Source: Salinadaptatus halalkaliphilus (GTDB taxonomy: Archaea; Halobacteriota; Halobacteria; Halobacteriales; Natrialbaceae). From it: a stretch of 32,226 bases of DNA. The stretch is from assembly GCF_006543045.1 (NCBI RefSeq), contig NZ_RBZW01000010.1, positions 1 to 32,226 of the forward strand, written 5' to 3'. The position numbers and the translations under genes were made by a program. The notes beneath the pieces are model-generated. The model ran no database searches, was not told the DNA's origin, and saw nothing but the letters and a program-made list of their open reading frames with translations. Every line of letters begins with the position of its first letter. The stretch's first letter is position 1. Shown piece after piece: positions 4,627 through 27,906 of this stretch.

Positions 4627-5892
4627 CTTGTCGGTGGACTCCCGTTCTGCCGACACGTAGGCGTCGGACGCCACGTCAGTAGCGTTCACGGTCATCGTCC
4701 CCGACTTCAGGGCGTACTGACAGAACGCCCCTCCAGCGGGGGACTTCTGCCCCCGCTGGAGTTTGAGTGCGAGTTTTCGGGCGACGTTTTTCGCTGCGTT
4801 GTAGTCGGCGTTCGCCGAGTACGAACAGTCGAGACACTGGAAGTGCTGGCCGTCACGATTCTCGTCGAGCGTACAGCCACACTTCGAGCATTGTTGGCTG
4901 GTGTAGGATGGTTCGACTGTTTCGACCACGATACCAGCCAGTTCTGCCTTGTGTTCGGTCTGTTCTTGCAGTTCGCGGAACGCCCACTGTTGGAACTTCT
5001 TGCCGTCGCTGATACGCTCTCGAATCTGCTCCAGGTCCTCGAAGGCGATGTGCGTACAGCCGTGGCGCTTGGCTTCCGCGAGGATCTCTTTGGAACACCG
5101 ATGGAGGTAGTCTCTACTCCAGCGACCGAACCTGTCGCCAATGCGCTGGAAGGTTAGATGTACGCTCCGCGTTCCAGTCTGTTGGAGGCTGGCACGCCGT
5201 TTTTCGAACTCGCGGCGCTGGTGGTTAAGATAGTCAGCGTTGCCGACGAATGCACCTGTCGAGGTCACGGCAATGTGGTCATCAACGTTACAGTCCACGC
5301 CAAGCACGTTCGAATGCTCGGCTTTCTCAGGACGTTCAACGTCGAGTTCTCGTTCCATCACTGCGTGCAGGTAGAACTTGTCGGCTTCGCTGTCATAGTG
5401 GACGGTGCTGGTCGAAAACGAGTAGTCGTCGTTCAGCAGGTATTCGCCGTGTGGTGCGCCGTCTGGGTCGTCAGGTAGGTCGTATTCGCATTCGACTCTG
5501 CCGTTGACGGTGGCGAGGCTCACTTTGTCACGGTAGTAGGTGGCGGCTCGCTTATCGTAGACGATGCTGAACGTGTCGTACCCTGGCTTGCTGGTGGTCT
5601 CGCCGTCAGCAAGCCGATCAACGCAGTTGTCGATGTCGTCGGTGGCGCGTTTGATCGCCTTCTGGACGAGGTTCGCATGCAGGTAGTCTGCTTCTTCACG
5701 AAGGTCGTCGTAGATGGCGGCTTCGGCTTCGCTCTTGCTGGTTACGCAGTCCTCGTCAGGGTAACGCCACGCCCAGTCTGCGGTGCGGTTCGCGCAGTAC
5801 TGGAATTTGTCGTTGGTGGCGTGGAGGTCACTCTTGCGGTCGTCAGGCACGTCGAGACGGACACGAACCGTTCGAGTCACCTCCCACGCCAT
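4600..5892 (-). CDS. tnpB: TnpB, RNA-guided DNA nuclease of a solo IS200/IS605-type element
   Basis: A complete TnpB of 430 residues counted from the ATG at 5892; an in-frame GTG three codons earlier (5901) is the alternative start. All expected blocks are present: RuvC-I GVDCNVD (Asp about 200), RuvC-II AFEDLE (Glu about 285), a zinc ribbon CSKCG...CLDC (Cys about 335, 338, 353, 356) and RuvC-III ADYNAAKN (Asp about 363). Family knowledge: TnpB cuts DNA next to a short transposon-adjacent motif, guided by an omega RNA made from the 3' end of the gene and the right end of the element. No tnpA transposase lies nearby, so the element needs a helper in trans to move. The coding sequence runs through the right-end hairpin, so the last residues (TASAVGS) are encoded by the hairpin itself. 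All catalytic residues are intact, so it may be active. Confidence 0.9.
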   Translation of the reverse strand: MAWEVTRTVRVRLDVPDDRKSDLHATNDKFQYCANRTADWAWRYPDEDCVTSKSEAEAAIYDDLREEADYLHANLVQKAIKRATDDIDNCVDRLADGETTSKPGYDTFSIVYDKRAATYYRDKVSLATVNGRVECEYDLPDDPDGAPHGEYLLNDDYSFSTSTVHYDSEADKFYLHAVMERELDVERPEKAEHSNVLGVDCNVDDHIAVTSTGAFVGNADYLNHQRREFEKRRASLQQTGTRSVHLTFQRIGDRFGRWSRDYLHRCSKEILAEAKRHGCTHIAFEDLEQIRERISDGKKFQQWAFRELQEQTEHKAELAGIVVETVEPSYTSQQCSKCGCTLDENRDGQHFQCLDCSYSANADYNAAKNVARKLALKLQRGQKSPAGGAFCQYALKSGTMTVNATDVASDAYVSAERESTDKPTASAVGS

Positions 5893-6981: not shown

Positions 6982-8357
6982 GTGACTCAAGCGGATTTAG
7001 GACCACGACGACAGGAACTTCTCGAAGCATGGGGCACATATGCCGCAACCACGCCTCAGAGCGAATTTCACGATTTCGGGCCGGAAAATCGAAACGAAAG
7101 AGTACGCGATCAACTGGAATCGTTCCTCGAGTCGCCATCCGAGACCCCTTCGAAGAACTGTGGTCACACGACGTCCTGCGAGATGCCGTGATGGGCGGAT
7201 CAGCACTCGTTCTCAATACCTGGCCAGGCACCTTGGACGACTTGGCCGCTCGATTCGAACGAATGCAGACAGCCGAGGAATACGATCCCAGTTGGGAGGA
7301 CGATATTGTAGCCACAAGCGCGATCTGGGAACTCTACGGGCACATGGATCCAGCCAACCGCCCAATCCTGAACAGTCAGGTAATGTCTGGGCTAGACTCA
7401 CTCGGATTCAACAAACCAGCAGACTATCAGAACAGACGGGGATTCGAGCGGTTCGCAGACGCTTACGATTCGATCGTCGGTCACGCCACAGCAGCAACGG
7501 ACCACGAAGTCCCGTGGTATTTCGAACTCGAGCAGTTTCTCGTAATGGCTGGAACTGAGAATCAATACGACATCCATTCAGCGCTCCCAGTCGACCCGGA
7601 GTATCCGAAGGTGGTCGGCTGGGAGGCTGAGGGCCATGCAGGCAAAATCGTATTCAGAGATCTTGCTCCCCTGTTGGAGAAGTACACTGAATCCAAGGCA
7701 GGAGGCGGATTCGAAAAAGGTGAGACCGGCTTGTGGGGAGACTACTGGGAGTCCTGGAAGTGGACCCATGCTGACCACATCCGAACCAACGTCCGAACGG
7801 AGTACGAGATCACAGATCTCAGTGGTGACGAGCTCGAGTCCTTCCTGAAGCAGTTCAAGAACGCCCCAGACGTCGAATTATCGAGTACTGTCCCAACGTA
7901 CTTGCTCGGCGGACGGTCTGGGGGAATTCTCTGGAACGATTTCAAAAATCGATCTCTCGAACACCCGCACGATGCAGCAGAAGTCCTCTCAATGCTCTTT
8001 GACGAGAACAAGCCATTGACTGATCGGCTGGCCCGCTTCAACGATTTCTACGCACCATTAGAAACCTCACCAGGGCCGTTGCTCAGTCTAGCTACGATGT
8101 TTCTCATGCTCACATATCCAACAGAGTACGTGATGTACAAGTACGGCAAATTCAGCTCGTTCTTCGAGGAGTATAGCGATTACAACGTTTCGACCGGCTT
8201 CGAGCCAAAACAATACTGGGTGCTCAACGAGGCGAGTCAGCGAATCGTTCGGCGACTGAATGGGATGTTCGACGAGGATCCCCGTATCGATACTGAAGCA
8301 TCGATGCTTGACGTCCACACGCTGATCTGGGTTACAGTCGGTGTTGAAAACCTTTGA
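6982..8357 (+). pseudogene. Frameshifted remnant resembling the N-terminal part of a McrB-type restriction ATPase
   Basis: Two frames join into one protein. From the GTG at 6982 the frame reads VTQADLGPRRQELLEAWG... to about 7143. The next frame, open from before 7145 to 8357, continues DPFEELWSHDVLRDAVMGG.... Adding one C to the CCCC run at 7145-7148 would give continuous SETPFEELW, so a 1-nt loss broke the gene. The C-terminal part (YVMYKYGKFSSFFEEYSDYNVSTGFEPKQYWVLN...ASMLDVHTLIWV) resembles, from memory, the domain in front of the AAA+ GTPase in archaeal McrB-like proteins. No Walker A motif or AAA+ region follows; the frame stops at 8357 and downstream DNA is noncoding. It is thus a remnant or a stand-alone recognition domain. 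The 1-nt shift could also be a sequencing error, but the missing ATPase is not explained by that. Confidence 0.55.
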
Positions 8358-19006: not shown

Positions 19007-20236
19007 ATGGAGGTCGTCCGCAACATCCAGCTAAAACTCGACGTCCCCGAGGACGACCACAGCGTTCTCGATAAGACGTTCGAGCAATTCCGCTATGCGG
19101 CCCAACACGTCGCTGACGCTGGCTGGAGCGACGACCCCACGGCGATCGAGGACACGAAGAACACACTCCACGACCAAACCTACACAGAGGTTCGGGAGCA
19201 GACCAGTCTGCAAGCCAGTCTCGTTCAAAGCGCCCGCAACATCGCCGCCGACGCCCTCGGCACCTGTAAAGACCGCATCCTCGACGACGGCAAAAAGGCA
19301 AGCAAGCCCGAGTTCCGAGGCAGTGTCGTCGTGTACAACGGGCGCACCATCACCTACCACGACGATCACGTGACCCTCGCCACTGTAGGCGACCGCGTGA
19401 CCGCCGAGTTCGTCACACCCGAAGACGACGAGGGCACGCCGATTGCGGAGTATTGGACGGACGAATGGAAGAAGAAGGAAGCTACACTACACAAGCGTGA
19501 CGGCAAGTACTACCTTCACATCGCAGTCGAGAAAGACGTCGAACCTGCTGATTCTAGCGACGATTCGACCGAGAACGGAGTGGTTCTTGGTGTCGATTTG
19601 AATGTAGACGGATACCTCGCCGTCACCAGCACGGGAGCCTTCCTCGGTAACGCAGACTACCTCAACCACCGCCGCGACGAGTACGAGCGTCGGCGCGGGA
19701 ACCTGCAACAGACAGGAACTCGTTCCGCGCATCTCACCATCAAGAGCATTGGCTCACGGTTCGCTCGGTGGAGCGCGGACTACCTTCACCGCGTGTCGAA
19801 GGCTATCGTCCGTGAAGCCGTGGAGAACGATTGTACGGCGATTGCGTTCGAGAATTTGAAACACATACGGACGCGTATCTCGAACGCCTCGAAGTTCCAG
19901 CAGTGGGCGTTCCGCGAACTCCACCGCCACGTCGAATACAAAGCCGAAGAACACGGAATCGACGTGGACGATGTTGCTCCAGCGTACACGTCACAGCGAT
20001 GTAGTCACGGCGAGTGTGGCTTCACCCACGAGGATAACCGCGATGGTGACGAGTTCGAGTGCTTGAACTGTGGAAAGGAACTCCACGCGGATTATAACGC
20101 CGCTCGGAACATCGGGTGGCGTCTTGTCCAGCACTGGCTCAAGTCTGGTGCTGGACGGGGCACCAGTCAACTGGCCCTCAAGTCAGGGACGTTGAAAGCG
20201 AACGGCGACTACACGCCTTCCGCCCTGCGCGGATAG
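19007..20236 (+). CDS. tnpB: TnpB, RNA-guided DNA nuclease of a solo IS200/IS605-type element
   Basis: A complete 409-residue TnpB. RuvC-I is GVDLNVD (Asp 197), RuvC-II AFENLK (Glu 282), the zinc ribbon CSHGECG...CLNC (Cys 332, 337, 352, 355; the first knuckle has four rather than two spacer residues) and RuvC-III ADYNAARN (Asp 362). All catalytic residues are present. Over the RuvC half it is very similar to the TnpB at 4600-5892 (shared AVTSTGAF.GNADYLNH), so the two elements belong to one lineage. The ATG at 19007 opens straight into the first strand (MEVVRNIQLKLDV). No tnpA lies nearby. The element sits beside the orc repeat cluster. Confidence 0.92.
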   Translation: MEVVRNIQLKLDVPEDDHSVLDKTFEQFRYAAQHVADAGWSDDPTAIEDTKNTLHDQTYTEVREQTSLQASLVQSARNIAADALGTCKDRILDDGKKASKPEFRGSVVVYNGRTITYHDDHVTLATVGDRVTAEFVTPEDDEGTPIAEYWTDEWKKKEATLHKRDGKYYLHIAVEKDVEPADSSDDSTENGVVLGVDLNVDGYLAVTSTGAFLGNADYLNHRRDEYERRRGNLQQTGTRSAHLTIKSIGSRFARWSADYLHRVSKAIVREAVENDCTAIAFENLKHIRTRISNASKFQQWAFRELHRHVEYKAEEHGIDVDDVAPAYTSQRCSHGECGFTHEDNRDGDEFECLNCGKELHADYNAARNIGWRLVQHWLKSGAGRGTSQLALKSGTLKANGDYTPSALRG

Positions 20237-22925: not shown

Positions 22926-23077
22926 ATTATCATCTCCGTTGAGGCGCGTCTCACGGGCCAGATGTTCGACAACTGTACTCCGAGTGCACGAGGGACGATT
23001 CGAACGCCCGTCTCGGTCGTGGCACAACCGCGTGTTTCCGAACTCCACCACTCGCGCATCCTCAAATCCGAACTGGG

Positions 23078-24607
23078 CTAGGTCGGGTCGAACGCCTCGA
23101 TCTCATCGATGATCTGTTTCGGATTCTCGGCGTGTTCGATGAACGAGAGGACGTTCTCCGACCATCCCGAGATGTTGTAGACGTTTTCGTAGCCTTCTGG
23201 CGTCACCAGGTCGCCGTAGGCCGCGAGATCGACGAGATACAGCGCGGTGTCCGCAGACACCTCGTCTCGATACGCATCGAACGCGTCTTTGACCGTCTGG
23301 GAATCGCGGGCCGTGAACGGCGTGTTGTCCCAGATCTGCATATCGGTGAAGACGACGATGCGTTCAACAGCATCCCCTCGGTCGTGGAGGTGCTTGATCG
23401 CCCTCCAGCCGTTCGTCGAGTTTCCGACATCCTCGTCGATCGCCAACACCGCCGCTTGGCGCTGCAGGACTGGCGTGTCGACGTGCATCGGAACGGTCTG
23501 GAAGTCGTCGCCGAACCCGCCGACGTCAGCACCCTGGTCGGCCAGGATCGCACCGAACAATGCACCGATCTCCTTCAGTCGGAGCGTGCTGTTCGCGGAC
23601 AGCGGCTGATCCATCGATCCCGACAGGTCGACCGCGACAAAGGTATCGCCGAATCCGCCAGGCACCGTCTCGACCGCGACATCAATTGCGTCTTCGAGCC
23701 ACTGCTCGACCGTCGGTGCCTGGACATCCGCGTCTTGCAGCGCGGTGTAGGCCTGGTAGTACCGGAACGGGTACAGCGGCGCGTGGCGGATGGCCTCCAG
23801 GTCGAGGTGATCCACGACGGTGTCCTCCGGAACGCCGGCTTCGAGCATATTCCGGAGGTTCCGGATCGACGCGAAGATGGGCAGCGTGTACTCGTCGTCC
23901 TCGATGAGCAGTTCCCAGGCGGCTTGGGTGTTGCCGCGCTCGGAGATAACCGTCTCCCACGTGTTCGGCGCCGGCAACGGGTCGACGTCGGGATAGTCGT
24001 CGAGGCCACCACGCATGAACCGCTCGAAGAGCGCTTCCTGCTCGGCGTCGATGGGCGTGGGGTGGACGCGGTTGAAGACGTCGTGCAGCGTCACCTCGCG
24101 CTGCGACAGCTCGTACTTGCCCAGCGTGTAGGCGTCGGCCATCTCCACCAGCGCGTCCTCGATCCCGCGTCGAAGCGGCCACGGCGCAGTCCCGCCGAAC
24201 AGCTGATCGTGGACCGCGAGCGCGGTGGCCGTCTCGTCCATCCGCTGGATGATCGCCGGCGCCCATTCGCGGATGAGCGACTCGGGGGAGTCGTCCTTGA
24301 ATCGGTCGTCGTTGGCTGCCAGTACGAGTAGCACTTGTGGGATGTCCCGCAAGTAGAGCTCCTGGCGCGCATAGGCCGCGAGCTTCAGGACGAACTCCGG
24401 GTCCTCGTTTGCGGCGGCATCGAACTGGCGAACGACAGCAGCGAGCTGTTCGTCATCGGTCTCGTAGAACGAGCCCTCCAGCAGCTGGTTGATCGTGCGC
24501 TTGTACAGTGCGAGTCGGGGGTCGGCAGGCTCGAACGCTTCGCCACCCTCGTAGTTGGTGGTCCGCGTTGCCTCCGCGACCGTTTGCTTTGGCGTGTTGA
24601 ATTCCAT
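23078..24607 (-). CDS. Ro60-like RNA-binding protein (TROVE plus von Willebrand A domain)
   Basis: A 509-residue Ro60 (Rsr) homologue. Residues about 10-300 are the HEAT-like helical TROVE domain, which in known relatives forms a ring that holds Y RNAs on its surface and passes the ends of misfolded RNAs through its centre. Diagnostic pieces are YKRTINQLLEGSFYE, FVLKLAAYARQELYLRDIPQVLLVLAA and HAPLYPFRYYQAYTAL. The vWA domain follows with a complete MIDAS site: D327-x-S329-x-S331 in AVDLSGSMDQ, T398 and D422 in VVFTDM. The ATG at 24607 has GGTGAT just upstream, complementary to the 16S rRNA 3' end; the frame further upstream runs into tRNA-Arg and is not coding. It lies at the downstream end of a 14-tRNA array on the same strand and directly after two structured tRNA-like RNAs that are candidate Y RNAs. 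Family members act in RNA quality control and stress survival; mycobacteriophage Bxz1 is a known case of a Ro homologue next to a large tRNA set. Confidence 0.92.
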   Translation of the reverse strand: MEFNTPKQTVAEATRTTNYEGGEAFEPADPRLALYKRTINQLLEGSFYETDDEQLAAVVRQFDAAANEDPEFVLKLAAYARQELYLRDIPQVLLVLAANDDRFKDDSPESLIREWAPAIIQRMDETATALAVHDQLFGGTAPWPLRRGIEDALVEMADAYTLGKYELSQREVTLHDVFNRVHPTPIDAEQEALFERFMRGGLDDYPDVDPLPAPNTWETVISERGNTQAAWELLIEDDEYTLPIFASIRNLRNMLEAGVPEDTVVDHLDLEAIRHAPLYPFRYYQAYTALQDADVQAPTVEQWLEDAIDVAVETVPGGFGDTFVAVDLSGSMDQPLSANSTLRLKEIGALFGAILADQGADVGGFGDDFQTVPMHVDTPVLQRQAAVLAIDEDVGNSTNGWRAIKHLHDRGDAVERIVVFTDMQIWDNTPFTARDSQTVKDAFDAYRDEVSADTALYLVDLAAYGDLVTPEGYENVYNISGWSENVLSFIEHAENPKQIIDEIEAFDPT

Positions 24608-24721
24608 CCTATCACCCGGAGCCGCAACAGGCGACTCCGATCGTAGCTGCCCACAAGCTCTGTGAGCAGCGAGTCTCGGGAGAGAAACTTCCCGAACCAG
24701 CCTCGCATCGCTCGGCTGGAC

Positions 24722-24795
24722 GTTCCCGGCACGATTCGAACGTGCGACACCCGGCTTCGAAGGCCGGTGCTCTGTCCTGACTGAGCTACGGGAAC
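24722..24795 (-). tRNA. tRNA-Arg (anticodon UCG)
   Basis: A full cloverleaf of 74 nt: acceptor GTTCCCG/CGGGAAC, D-arm GCTCAGTCAGGACAGAGC, anticodon stem CCGGC/GCCGG with loop CTTCGAA (anticodon TCG, codon CGA) and T-arm GCACG-TTCGAAT-CGTGC. All stems pair fully. It is the array member nearest the Ro60-like gene. Confidence 0.92.
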
Positions 24796-24803
24796 ACGAG
24801 TGG

Positions 24804-24954
24804 CCGGACAATTTCTGGAGCGAACGACGGGATTCGAACCCGTAATGTGCCATCGACGTAGCGCTCCAGATCGACGGTCACTGGCGACACGACGACCGGA
24901 AAACTGTCGGAGCGGGACCGGTGTCGAGCGTCCTCTCGTACGCTCTTTGTCCGG
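24804..24954 (-). ncRNA. Structured tRNA-like RNA A, candidate Y RNA (YrlA-like)
   Basis: No anticodon arm can be drawn, yet the 3' part has a perfect T-arm (ACGGG-TTCGAAT-CCCGT) followed by an acceptor-like strand CGTTCGC that pairs with GCGTACG at the 5' side (6 of 7 pairs). This helix continues outward into GA/TC pairs and then, after an internal loop, an 8-bp terminal stem CCGGACAA/TTGTCCGG that closes the whole 151-nt RNA. A D-arm-like GGAC/GTCC hairpin follows the 5' strand. Where an anticodon arm should be, there is a long irregular arm (CGCTCC/GGAGCG, then CGGTC/GACCG). Bacterial YrlA RNAs combine a tRNA-like T/D module with a long closing stem that binds Ro60. The Ro60-like gene starts about 200 nt downstream on the same strand. 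That this is a Y RNA is inference. Confidence 0.5.
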
Positions 24955-24973
24955 GATGTTCTCGATGGGTTGT

Positions 24974-25169
24974 GCCACCGACAGGATTTGAACCTGCGAG
25001 TTCCTGGCGAAGCAACGCTCCGACTCGACGGTCGCCACGTGCGGTCGAGCAACTGGTGGTGCGACGGGCTATGACTCCCGTTGGTGTGCTTTGCGGGCGA
25101 AGAAACGCACCACCTCGTCGACCACACGCTTGGGGAACGCTGACCGTGACAGCGTCACGGATCCGTGGC
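24974..25169 (-). ncRNA. Structured tRNA-like RNA B, candidate Y RNA (YrlA-like)
   Basis: A second RNA with a perfect T-arm loop (GCAGG-TTCAAAT-CCTGT) and acceptor strand CGGTGGC, which pairs with GCCACGG about 195 nt upstream (6 of 7). No anticodon arm with T33 and good stems can be found. Instead, a very long hairpin fills the middle: CGTGTGGTCGA with TCGACCGCACG (11 bp, one G-U; plus-strand positions 25118-25128 and 25038-25048), an internal loop, then GGTGGTGCG with CGCACCACC (9 bp; 25106-25114 and 25055-25063). The 5' side also carries a 7-bp hairpin (25144-25160). A long stem interrupted by an internal loop is what Ro60 binds in Y RNAs. It lies next to RNA A and the Ro60-like gene. Exact ends are uncertain, and an intron-bearing or decayed tRNA is the alternative. 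Confidence 0.45.
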
Positions 25170-25221
25170 TGCCCGCTATGTCAGACACGGAAAAACGCTG
25201 TCAGGGCCAGCCTCCCCGACT

Positions 25222-25296
25222 GCTCCCGAGGGGAATCGAACCCCTGGCCTCCAGTTTGAAAAACTGGCGTCTCTCGCCAACGGAGACTCCGGGAGC
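25222..25296 (-). tRNA. tRNA-Glu (anticodon UUC)
   Basis: A 75-nt cloverleaf: acceptor GCTCCCG/CGGGAGC, anticodon stem CCAGT/ACTGG with loop TTTTCAA (anticodon TTC, codon GAA) and T-arm AGGGG-TTCGATT-CCCCT. All stems are perfect. Confidence 0.92.
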
Positions 25297-26002: not shown

Positions 26003-26037
26003 GGGTTGGCCTCGTCTGGAACGGGTCGTCGGCCAGT

Positions 26038-26169
26038 GGGACGGGCAGGATTCGAACCTGCGTGTTCTCGTTACAAGTGAGATGAAGGAACTCTCACCGT
26101 CGCACCGGGTCTCCGGTGAAAACTCGGTGAGTGTGTGTGTGTGTGAATGCCAGGCTCTTCCACCGTCCC
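26038..26169 (-). tRNA. tRNA-Thr (anticodon UGU) with a 61-nt insertion
   Basis: The acceptor is perfect (GGGACGG/CCGTCCC), as is the T-arm (GCAGG-TTCGAAT-CCTGC). The anticodon arm is TCTCA/CGAGA (one A-C mismatch) with loop CTTGTAA (anticodon TGT, codon ACA). The D-arm (GAAG...ATTC) is separated from the anticodon arm by about 61 extra nt (26083-26143) that fold on themselves: CTCACCG/CGGTGAG around a CACCGG/CCGGTG hairpin, preceded by a CA dinucleotide run. Canonical archaeal introns sit one base after the anticodon; this one would lie between the D- and anticodon arms. It may be a non-canonical intron, a permanent extra arm, or decay. Confidence 0.7.
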
Positions 26170-26518: not shown

Positions 26519-27906
26519 GTCAACTGCCCCGCGCACGGTGGCGCGGGGCTTGTCAGTGAACTCGGCCTCTGCCGACCATAGTTAGTCGGACGAGACAAAG
26601 CCCCGGTTCGGCGTCACCGTTCCTGACTTCAGGGCGAGTTGACTGTCGCCCGTCCGCCGCGACGACTGTAGGCCGCGACGGACATACCGCCACCCAATAT
26701 TCTTCGCTCCAACATAGTCCGCGTTCGCTGTCGTATCACACCTCTCGCACTCAAACTCTGCCTGTGTTACGCGGTTCCCTTTACTCGTGTGTCCACATTC
26801 GGGACACCGACGACTCGTATTCTCCGGATCGACGTACTCTACGCAGATGCCTTCCGTCTCGGACTTGTACTCCACGAGATCAACGAGTTGCCGATGCGCC
26901 CACTGGTGGAACTCTTTGACCGGCGGCACACGGTCTCTGATGTGGGTCAGATTCTCGAATGCAATGTATTCACAGTCGTGATTCAACGCTTCTTCGATAA
27001 TGTCGTTGGCCACGCGATGCAGGACATCCCGAACGTAGCGGGACTCTCTGCCGCTCATCTGCTGGATGGTGCGGTGTGCGGACTGCGTACCGGTCTGTTG
27101 GAGACTGCTTCGAATCCGCTCGAACTCCCGGTGTCGATGTCTGACTTCTCTGCCGGACGCGAAGTACGCCGTTGAGGTTGTGGCGATGTTGACGATGCCG
27201 AGGTCGACGCCGAGAACTGTCCTGTCCTCGTCGTCGCCCTGTTGTTCGACCTGTTTCTCGGGCTTCGGTTTGCGAAAGCCGAGATGCAGGTAGTAGTCGC
27301 CATCACGCCGAGAAAGCGTGGATTCGGTGAGCTCCCAGTCCTCATCGTTGAGGTACTGGTGTTGGTAGCCGTCTTCGTCGTCCGGCAACGCGAGATCGCA
27401 CCGGATGCGGTCGTCAACCGTTGTAAGTGAGACTGTTTCGTCGTCGAACAGCGTCATCGTCCGGGTGTCGTATTTCACCGTGGTGGCGGTGAACTCCGGA
27501 CACGAGGTTTTGTATTTCTCGTCTAGTTCTTTGATTTCTTCGACGCCGGAGAGTGCGGCTGCGGCTTGGTGGGTGGCGAGGATTGCGTGTTGGCTCCCGA
27601 GACGCGTCTCCTCCAGCACCTCGTCGTAGGCGAGGTCTTGGAGGTATGTCTTCCGCGTTTCACCCGTTTGCCATCCGATCCGACTGCTGATGTTGCAGGC
27701 ATCTTGCCACTCGTTGATGGTGGCGTCAAGCAGATCTTGTTGCTCGGTGGTGAGGATGGGGCGGGTGATTGCGGTGCGTCGCAGGTAGTCGTCCGCCACG
27801 GTTTTCAATAGATATATGAGGTACTTAGTAATCGGTGGTTTGTGGCAGTGGGTGTTGGTTTCCTCCCCGCCCACCGGTGGGCGGGGAACCCGCCTTGCTA
27901 TCTAAT
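26519..27906 (-). mobile_element. TnpB element inserted in the T-loop of tRNA-Ser(GGA)
   Basis: The element is 1388 bp, and its borders are fixed by the reconstructed tRNA. The left end follows TTCAA, the presumed transposon-adjacent target, and contains a perfect 22-bp palindrome with arms CCCCGCCCACC/GGTGGGCGGGG (about 27866-27887). The right end carries GACAAG, a GCCCCGCGC..GCGCGGGGC hairpin (about 26525-26550) and GTTGAC, ending at 26519. No target duplication exists, as expected for IS200/IS605-type transposition. The only gene is tnpB. Confidence 0.8.
26582..27799 (-). CDS. tnpB: TnpB, RNA-guided DNA nuclease (element in tRNA-Ser)
   Basis: A complete TnpB of 405 residues from the GTG at 27799 (reading MADDYLRRTAITRPIL); the open frame upstream passes through left-end palindrome sequence and is unlikely to be coding. 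RuvC-I is GVDLGIVNIA (Asp about 199), RuvC-II AFENLT, the zinc ribbon CPECG...CERC and RuvC-III ADYVGAKN. All catalytic residues are there. It is more distant from the other two intact TnpBs here (first RuvC motif GVDLG rather than GVD.NVD), although the right-end hairpin design is shared. By analogy its omega RNA would carry a guide that reads from 26518 into the 3' end of tRNA-Ser(GGA), and so would match the empty target site next to TTCAA. No tnpA is present. Confidence 0.9.
   Translation of the reverse strand: MADDYLRRTAITRPILTTEQQDLLDATINEWQDACNISSRIGWQTGETRKTYLQDLAYDEVLEETRLGSQHAILATHQAAAALSGVEEIKELDEKYKTSCPEFTATTVKYDTRTMTLFDDETVSLTTVDDRIRCDLALPDDEDGYQHQYLNDEDWELTESTLSRRDGDYYLHLGFRKPKPEKQVEQQGDDEDRTVLGVDLGIVNIATTSTAYFASGREVRHRHREFERIRSSLQQTGTQSAHRTIQQMSGRESRYVRDVLHRVANDIIEEALNHDCEYIAFENLTHIRDRVPPVKEFHQWAHRQLVDLVEYKSETEGICVEYVDPENTSRRCPECGHTSKGNRVTQAEFECERCDTTANADYVGAKNIGWRYVRRGLQSSRRTGDSQLALKSGTVTPNRGFVSSD

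Follow-up and report, generated by a model that had tools for sequence, protein, structure and literature searches.

A stretch on the minus strand of a haloarchaeal tRNA array, beside a gene for a Ro60-like protein, was originally predicted to be a tRNA mimic without an anticodon arm and a candidate archaeal Y RNA. This raises the question as to whether haloarchaea have Y RNAs and, if so, how many of them the locus encodes and where each begins and ends. To our knowledge, all Y RNAs known so far come from animals, bacteria or bacteriophages, and the searchable literature gives the same picture. A search of 5.39 million open papers, with the key Wolin-group papers on Y RNA lying outside it, found no description of an archaeal Y RNA or an archaeal Ro60, and the literature on Borgs and jumbo phages mentions TROVE and no archaeal Y RNA. 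Archaeal tRNA clusters were surveyed in 2019 (PMC6333295): TROVE was noted in 20 of the 29 clusters, tRNA pseudogenes were numerous, and the passages available to us hold no mention of Y RNAs. Judging from the comparative analysis below, the locus very likely encodes a haloarchaeal Ro ribonucleoprotein system, in which four RNAs of the array are predicted to carry one Ro-type stem and one of the four, Y0, is permuted.

A Ro60 gene inside a tRNA array

The window (the whole 32,226-nt stretch that was analysed, from Salinadaptatus halalkaliphilus) is part of a 4.5 Mb haloarchaeal assembly and carries a minus-strand array of 12 tRNAs as called by ARAGORN (Table 1). The Ro60-like gene predicted on the same strand as the RNA is borne out. 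Its product matches Pfam TROVE with 74.6 bits (cut-off 23), and an AlphaFold model (pLDDT 78) matches Ro60 and Rsr in Foldseek, the closest protein fold being Ro60 of Thermus phage phiLo (9l5y; E 3e-20), followed by Xenopus Ro (1.5e-13) and Deinococcus Rsr (4e-13). Both parts expected of a Ro60/TROVE protein, a TROVE ring and a vWA domain, are present, the vWA_Ro60 match scoring 26.0 bits, below its cut-off of 27.7. Since tRNA-Gly starts 20 nt past the Ro60 stop codon, the gene is located inside the tRNA array. At least 80% of the Ro60-Y block is found on ten plasmid records. The hairpin before the Ro60 gene is present in nearly all loci and its stem covaries (e.g. GGCGTCG/CGACGCC), and it may be a cis-regulatory element that controls Ro60 translation.

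Two ORFs of the window, 19007-20236 (+) and 26582-27874 (-), resemble IS200/IS605-type TnpB by eye, and the second lies within the array with tRNA-Leu and tRNA-Ser on either side. An insertion of ~52 nt, likely an intron, sits at the anticodon of tRNA-Arg in six loci (L011, L014, L019, L024, L035 and L040); the window copy is without it.

Table 1 Features of the Ro60 locus, in window coordinates
Feature	Position	Strand	Description	Basis
tRNA-Gly(GCC)	22984..23057	-		
Ro60/TROVE protein	23078..24607	-	509 aa; HEAT-like ring part and vWA domain (DLSGSM)	Pfam, AlphaFold, Foldseek
Hairpin GGAGTCG-CCTGTTG-CGGCTCC	24618..24638	-	conserved; immediately 5' of the Ro60 ribosome-binding site GGTGATAGNATG	leader alignment
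tRNA-Arg(TCG)	24717..24796	-	array member, between Ro60 gene and Y3	
Y3	24800..24881	-	reduced form: Ro stem and T-arm only (24843-24827)	R1 42.4 bits
Y2	24891..25036	-	Ro stem, T-arm, closed acceptor-like stem and a further arm	R1 60.5 bits; alignment A2
Y1	25039..25127	-	Ro-stem RNA without T-arm	own fold; R1 44.3 bits; conserved in related loci
tRNA-Glu(TTC)	25221..25296	-	upstream of Y1	
Y0	26037..26169	-	tRNA body with open acceptor and inserted Ro-type stem-loop	alignment A5, model R3

Three tandem units share a core

We compared 41 related loci from haloarchaeal genomes, one viral contig and the virus HGTV-1, with their leaders aligned. Three tandem units, Y1 to Y3, have a common core. 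Inside an outer stem lies a 4/7-nt internal loop (NCGA/RRUUUUC); a 9-bp inner helix follows, and after it UUNCUUC. In all three, as in YrlA RNAs, the two ends pair with each other, and the stem that they form is interrupted by an asymmetric internal loop. The motif after the inner helix reads NUNCUUC in the window units, with CGUC in Y3. In Y1 the parts are a 9-bp outer stem, the loop ACGA, the inner helix GGTGGTGCG/CGCACCACC, TTTCTTC and the loop AGTTGCT. The pattern of helix and loop also emerges from single-sequence folds of the window units; the fold energies of Y1 and Y2 are unexceptional (z -0.6), so that the case rests on comparison.

Across 87 candidate units, a few of which are chance matches, the helices vary, but NCGA, RRUUUUC and UUNCUUC hardly do. 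Units chosen by their loop motifs alone form 8.62 of 9 inner pairs, versus 6.98 ± 0.11 with shuffled partners (33 distinct inner strands). The alignment of Y2 (A2) has 30 counted pairs with 98.3% of cells paired and 15 compensatory pairs (0 of 500 shuffles), and that of the full-length form of Y3, Y3-long (A1, 17 divergent sequences), has 31 pairs with 99.2% of cells paired and 12 compensatory pairs. No more than 1 of 500 shuffles reaches the compensatory-pair counts of Y3-long, Y2 and Y0, which also lie far above slid controls.

What lies between the inner-helix strands differs among units. In Y3-long we find a T-arm, a loop-closed acceptor stem and a D-arm, in that order; this permuted module, typical of YrlA, is present in Y3 of the 17 divergent sequences and in the viral contig L146. 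The YrlA architecture proposed for the window therefore holds for Y3 of divergent relatives, but the window's own Y3 is reduced to the T-arm. The module is better kept in Y2, with a T-arm (24997-24981) and a closed acceptor-like stem (CGGTGG/CCATCG, 24980-24963) that has 6-9 bp in 20 of 20 sequences. Y1 has neither in the window, although a T-arm does occur in Y1 of L029, L030 and L033. The T-loop TTCRAAT is kept in Y2 and Y3. The D position of Y2 is taken by an arm (24954-24918) of the form CCGG-ACAAA-hairpin-GACA-CCGG; its ACAAA/GACA internal loop, inspected by eye, does not seem to have the kink-turn pattern. The outer stem of the window's Y3 has one A.C mismatch, which is peculiar to this genome.

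The linker CAYCACTCA recurs between adjacent units of divergent loci (e.g. GGTCGCCATCACTCATCC) and is possibly a processing site. Automatic annotation mislabels Y RNAs: ARAGORN reports a tRNA-His within the Y3 unit of L030 (5728-5792).

The 151-nt fold joins parts of Y2 and Y3

The original prediction took 24954-24804 as one 151-nt RNA with a perfect T-arm, an acceptor-like helix and an 8-bp terminal stem. The T-arm is indeed found, at 24843-24827, and a 9-bp helix exists around it (TCTGGAGCG/CGCTCCAGA), but its membership in a single 151-nt RNA is unsupported. The terminal stem likewise exists as a match, CCGGACAA/TTGTCCGG, between 24954-24947 and the 3' strand of Y3. It closes the minimum-energy fold of 24960-24800 (-64.7 kcal/mol, z -3.0 versus shuffles), which speaks for a single RNA, yet it fails in divergent relatives: among 36 related loci the stem is complete in only 19 close copies, and its pairing drops to 79% in 15 divergent loci, compared with 100% for the outer helix of Y3, which passes from GTGGCCG/CGGCCAC to GTGGTCG/CGACCAC to ATGGCCG/CGGCCAT by compensatory change. 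Loss of the one stem and compensation in the other indicate that the stretch is the 3' half of Y2, forming its 5' half, joined to Y3. Because the closing stem is unconserved while the own helices of Y2 and Y3 covary, a single RNA closed by CCGGACAA/TTGTCCGG is almost certainly wrong, and the long irregular arm thought to replace the anticodon arm is an artefact of fusing Y2 to Y3. The idea of a candidate archaeal Y RNA survives as that of YrlA-type RNA beside Ro60; its boundaries, its closing stem and the number of RNAs (three in tandem and a permuted fourth) had to be revised.

Unit presence tracks the Ro60 gene

A covariance model of Y3 (R1) and the TROVE family (PF05731) were searched in the same 391 Halobacteria. 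TROVE occurs at 48 loci in 44 genomes, and R1 units lie 662-973 nt upstream of the TROVE domain match, on the same strand, in 44 of the 48 (Fisher 2e-52); no R1 match above 40 bits lies away from TROVE loci in the 391 genomes. The four loci without an R1 match have one truncated gene (282-aa frame) and three divergent TROVE genes. By inspection, divergent cores are present just upstream of TROVE in G022 (three units), G234 (two, one with a T-arm) and G329 (one), so that a position beside Ro60/TROVE, as for YrlA, is found at 44 of 48 loci by model and at three more by inspection. L036 and L037 likewise carry units. The number of Y units per locus varies from 1 to 5. A second TROVE copy without Y units occurs near an intact copy with units in two cases, L032 (N-terminally truncated) and G268 contig 3 (282-aa frame); L032 and L040 are on one contig, about 12 kb apart.

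These data bear on two other explanations. The units could be decayed, functionless tRNA genes of a mobile tRNA array, in which they do lie; in the tRNA-cluster survey nearly every cluster was scored as having tRNA pseudogenes (PMC6333295), tRNA arms are missing from Y1 and Y3 of the window, and there is the tRNA-His call in L030. Decay is, however, already contradicted by covariation, with compensatory change keeping the stems, and the internal loops and UUNCUUC stay near invariant in more than 80 units whose presence tracks the TROVE gene, which makes pseudogenes highly improbable. Alternatively, Y1-Y3 could be, instead of separate RNAs, parts of a structured leader of the Ro60 mRNA and regulate it in cis, e.g. 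through Ro60 binding its own transcript. This would agree with units that are always upstream on the same strand and with the conserved hairpin before the start codon. It is unlikely in view of the varying unit number, of Y0, which lies about 1.4 kb further upstream, past other tRNAs, and of the intervening tRNA-Arg, the obligatory excision of which separates Y3 from the gene. We thus prefer to regard Y1-Y3 as RNAs of a Ro ribonucleoprotein system.

A fourth RNA has the order of a tRNA

An RNA in YrlA order ends in the Ro stem, whereas one in tRNA order ends in the acceptor and has the Ro stem after the D region and before the anticodon position. Y0 is of the second kind. Its acceptor, GGGACGG/CCGTCCC-A, is open, a T-arm is present, and the insert after the D region reads CACTCACCG-AGTTTTC-ACCGG-AGAC-CCGGT-GCGA-CGGTGAGAG-TTCCTTC, i.e. 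the Ro core with its strands exchanged (inner 3', AGTTTTC, outer 3', 4-nt loop, outer 5', GCGA, inner 5', TTCCTTC). By this arrangement Y0 is a predicted circular permutation of the Y3-long fold, its chain ends lying in the acceptor stem and its Ro stem being closed. A sequence-only profile test gives most Y0 sequences 6-10 bits and does not distinguish the rotated from the unrotated form, and the claim of permutation therefore rests on the order and pairing of the parts; in the profile test Y3-long resembles the array tRNA-Asp with 36 bits when rotated, other tRNAs giving 15 or less.

Y0 is conserved, with 28 distinct sequences. Its alignment (A5, 26 sequences) has 31 pairs with 96.5% of cells paired and 5 compensatory pairs (0 of 500 shuffles). 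As in an ordinary tRNA, acceptor, discriminator and T-arm are present, the 7-bp acceptor being 99.5% and the T-stem 100% paired; the D-arm is weak, and Rfam sees in the region a weak tRNA of 35 bits. The model built from Y0 (R3) scores above 45 bits in 28 of the 391 Halobacteria, all with TROVE, and in 0 of the 347 without it. R3 matches of up to 41 bits in TROVE-free genomes were rejected as mostly ~76-nt tRNAs, the one in G174 being a plain tRNA-Thr. Such tRNA-order RNAs occur in G022 (two), G234 and G329 (three each), HGTV-1 (one) and the genomes of a second family, f16 (one each, just before the Y RNA); in these genomes they are built on different tRNA bodies.

One reading of such genes is that they encode ordinary tRNAs in permuted or intron-containing form, with splicing of the transcript and the Ro-like arm as the intron. 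The tRNA bodies of Y0 and Y3-long are nearly complete, a 7-nt loop CTTGTAA is kept in Y0 of most loci, and the Y0 of HGTV-1 was deposited as a tRNA-Asp plus intron. The consensus structures, however, have a 9-bp helix followed by the 4/7 loop and contain no bulge-helix-bulge. A conserved anticodon loop with U33 is likewise missing from Y0: its 'anticodon' loops are CTTGTAA (15), CCTGTAA (3), CCTTTAA (2), CATTTAA, ACTTTAA and others, CCTGTAA and CATTTAA lacking U33, and are short in L029 and HGTV-1. In addition, the arm has the loop motifs of Y1-Y3 and is found on unrelated tRNA bodies too. With the loop not maintained, no bulge-helix-bulge and the motifs of Y1-Y3, we take the Y0 insert as an arm and consider an intron very unlikely. 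Y0 as a Ro-arm RNA would mean that one Ro-stem/tRNA fold exists in two circular permutations within the same array, and that the tRNA-order form is the link from tRNA to Y RNA, by insertion of an arm and then permutation; we see the case for this reading as a whole as evenly balanced, and the tRNA-order form offers a concrete route from one to the other.

A CA repeat at ~26131-26145 (-) lengthens the Y0 linker in this genome relative to all relatives. In L027, the 'tRNA-Thr' that ARAGORN reports at 4722-4791 is part of a Y0 RNA.

Viruses and a second archaeal family

Both forms are present in HGTV-1 (NC_021328; L044). A core at 7894-7985 ends 9 nt before the TROVE gene, and 5022-5153, deposited as 'tRNA-Asp gtc + Intron', has the core of a Ro arm and lacks a normal anticodon arm. 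Of the 36 tRNA genes that this virus carries, one is thus probably a tRNA-order Ro-arm RNA, which would correct its annotation; in the literature that we found, the RNA partners of HGTV-1 are undescribed. Two haloviral contigs from IMG/VR with a related TROVE protein (L146 and L147) have two units each, one unit of L146 having a T-arm, a closed acceptor and a D-arm.

TROVE is also found in five more genomes of another family (f16) of the same phylum. In four of the five, a Y-like RNA with the loop version TGT/TTATT precedes the TROVE gene, two of these RNAs having a T-arm and closed acceptor. The fifth genome (G554) has, ahead of its TROVE gene, a YrlA-like RNA at 3997-4115 of L144 (R1 34.3 bits, Rfam YrlA 33.0), which, together with its more bacterial-looking TROVE gene, may be contamination of an archaeal assembly. 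HGTV-1, L146/L147 and f16 supply independent copies of the arrangement. Y RNAs beside Ro60 in haloarchaea, haloviruses and a second archaeal family would extend the system to the third domain.

Relation to known RNAs

How close are the units to the Y RNAs of other organisms? The proposed comparison with Rfam YrlA (RF02553) gives an end-to-end alignment (model 1-114) with Y3 of L040, with 40.6 bits and E 1.7e-5 in 64 kb, but this lies under the gathering score of 69 bits, which is reached nowhere in 292 Halobacteria. The score is the best at a Ro60 locus; the best in the 292 genomes, 44.9 bits, is at a site without TROVE. The matches of 43-45 bits in G112 and G189, which have no TROVE in a PF05731 search and give R1 scores of 18.5 and 13.4, are probably chance or tRNA-related. 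Within the window, an Rfam search returns tRNA and chance matches and no specific YrlA match to the units; a YrlA match of 19.8 bits lies in the wrong register over tRNA-Arg.

Like bacterial YrlA (e.g. Salmonella YrlA, 6CU1), which is circularly permuted relative to tRNA (PMC11472068, PMC8394870), the fold has the order Ro stem, T-arm, loop-closed acceptor, D-arm, Ro stem, and the gene is beside Ro60; the 5-nt/8-nt internal loop of the bacterial model equals 4/7 with one closing pair more. Unlike it, the units are archaeal, in tandem sets of 1-5 within a tRNA array and below the Rfam cut-off, and they have motifs of their own (NCGA/RRUUUUC and UUNCUUC), a different arm in the D position of Y2 and reduced forms in Y1 and Y3 of the window.

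In metazoan Y RNAs the paired ends form a stem that has an internal loop or bulge close to where Ro60 binds. The units share such a stem, but have no detectable sequence similarity to these RNAs, and the metazoan model RF00019 does not match at E<=1 or at E<=10. Y0 can also be compared with tmRNA, with which it shares the acceptor end, the T-arm and the replacement of the anticodon part; in contrast to tmRNA it is without a tag reading frame, its insert is a Ro-type stem, and Rfam detects only a weak tRNA.

Possible mechanism and role

The mechanism that we propose starts with transcription of Y0-Y3 as part of a polycistronic tRNA transcript, from which the RNAs would be cut by tRNA-type processing. 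Ro60 would then bind them, with the NCGA/RRUUUUC stem docking on the outside of the ring, as suggested by Ro-Y structures of other organisms, and the tRNA-like end may gate the ring and/or tether it to a tRNA-handling enzyme or nuclease. In YrlA-type RNAs the terminal stem binds the Ro60 ring, and PNPase is attached to the tRNA-like end in Deinococcus (PMC8394870). The Rsr-Y RNA-PNPase complex of Deinococcus (RYPER) resembles the present system in having a Ro60-type ring and Y RNA from one locus. However, no RNase PH-family protein (PNPase, exosome), and hence no PNPase partner as in YrlA, was found in any of ten TROVE-bearing haloarchaea, a difference in the partner and not in the RNA fold, whereas an RNB/RNase R-type protein is present in all ten; Haloferax volcanii is reported to lack an RNA exosome (PMC10470531). 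A nuclease tethered in such hosts would therefore be RNase R or another enzyme rather than PNPase, and the apparent absence of PNPase makes the question of what a Y RNA tethers testable in culturable organisms. Finally, HGTV-1 carries genes of tRNA metabolism (PMC8651126), which, with the location in a mobile tRNA array, suggests that the system may help to survey or repair tRNAs when mobile elements and their hosts are in conflict.
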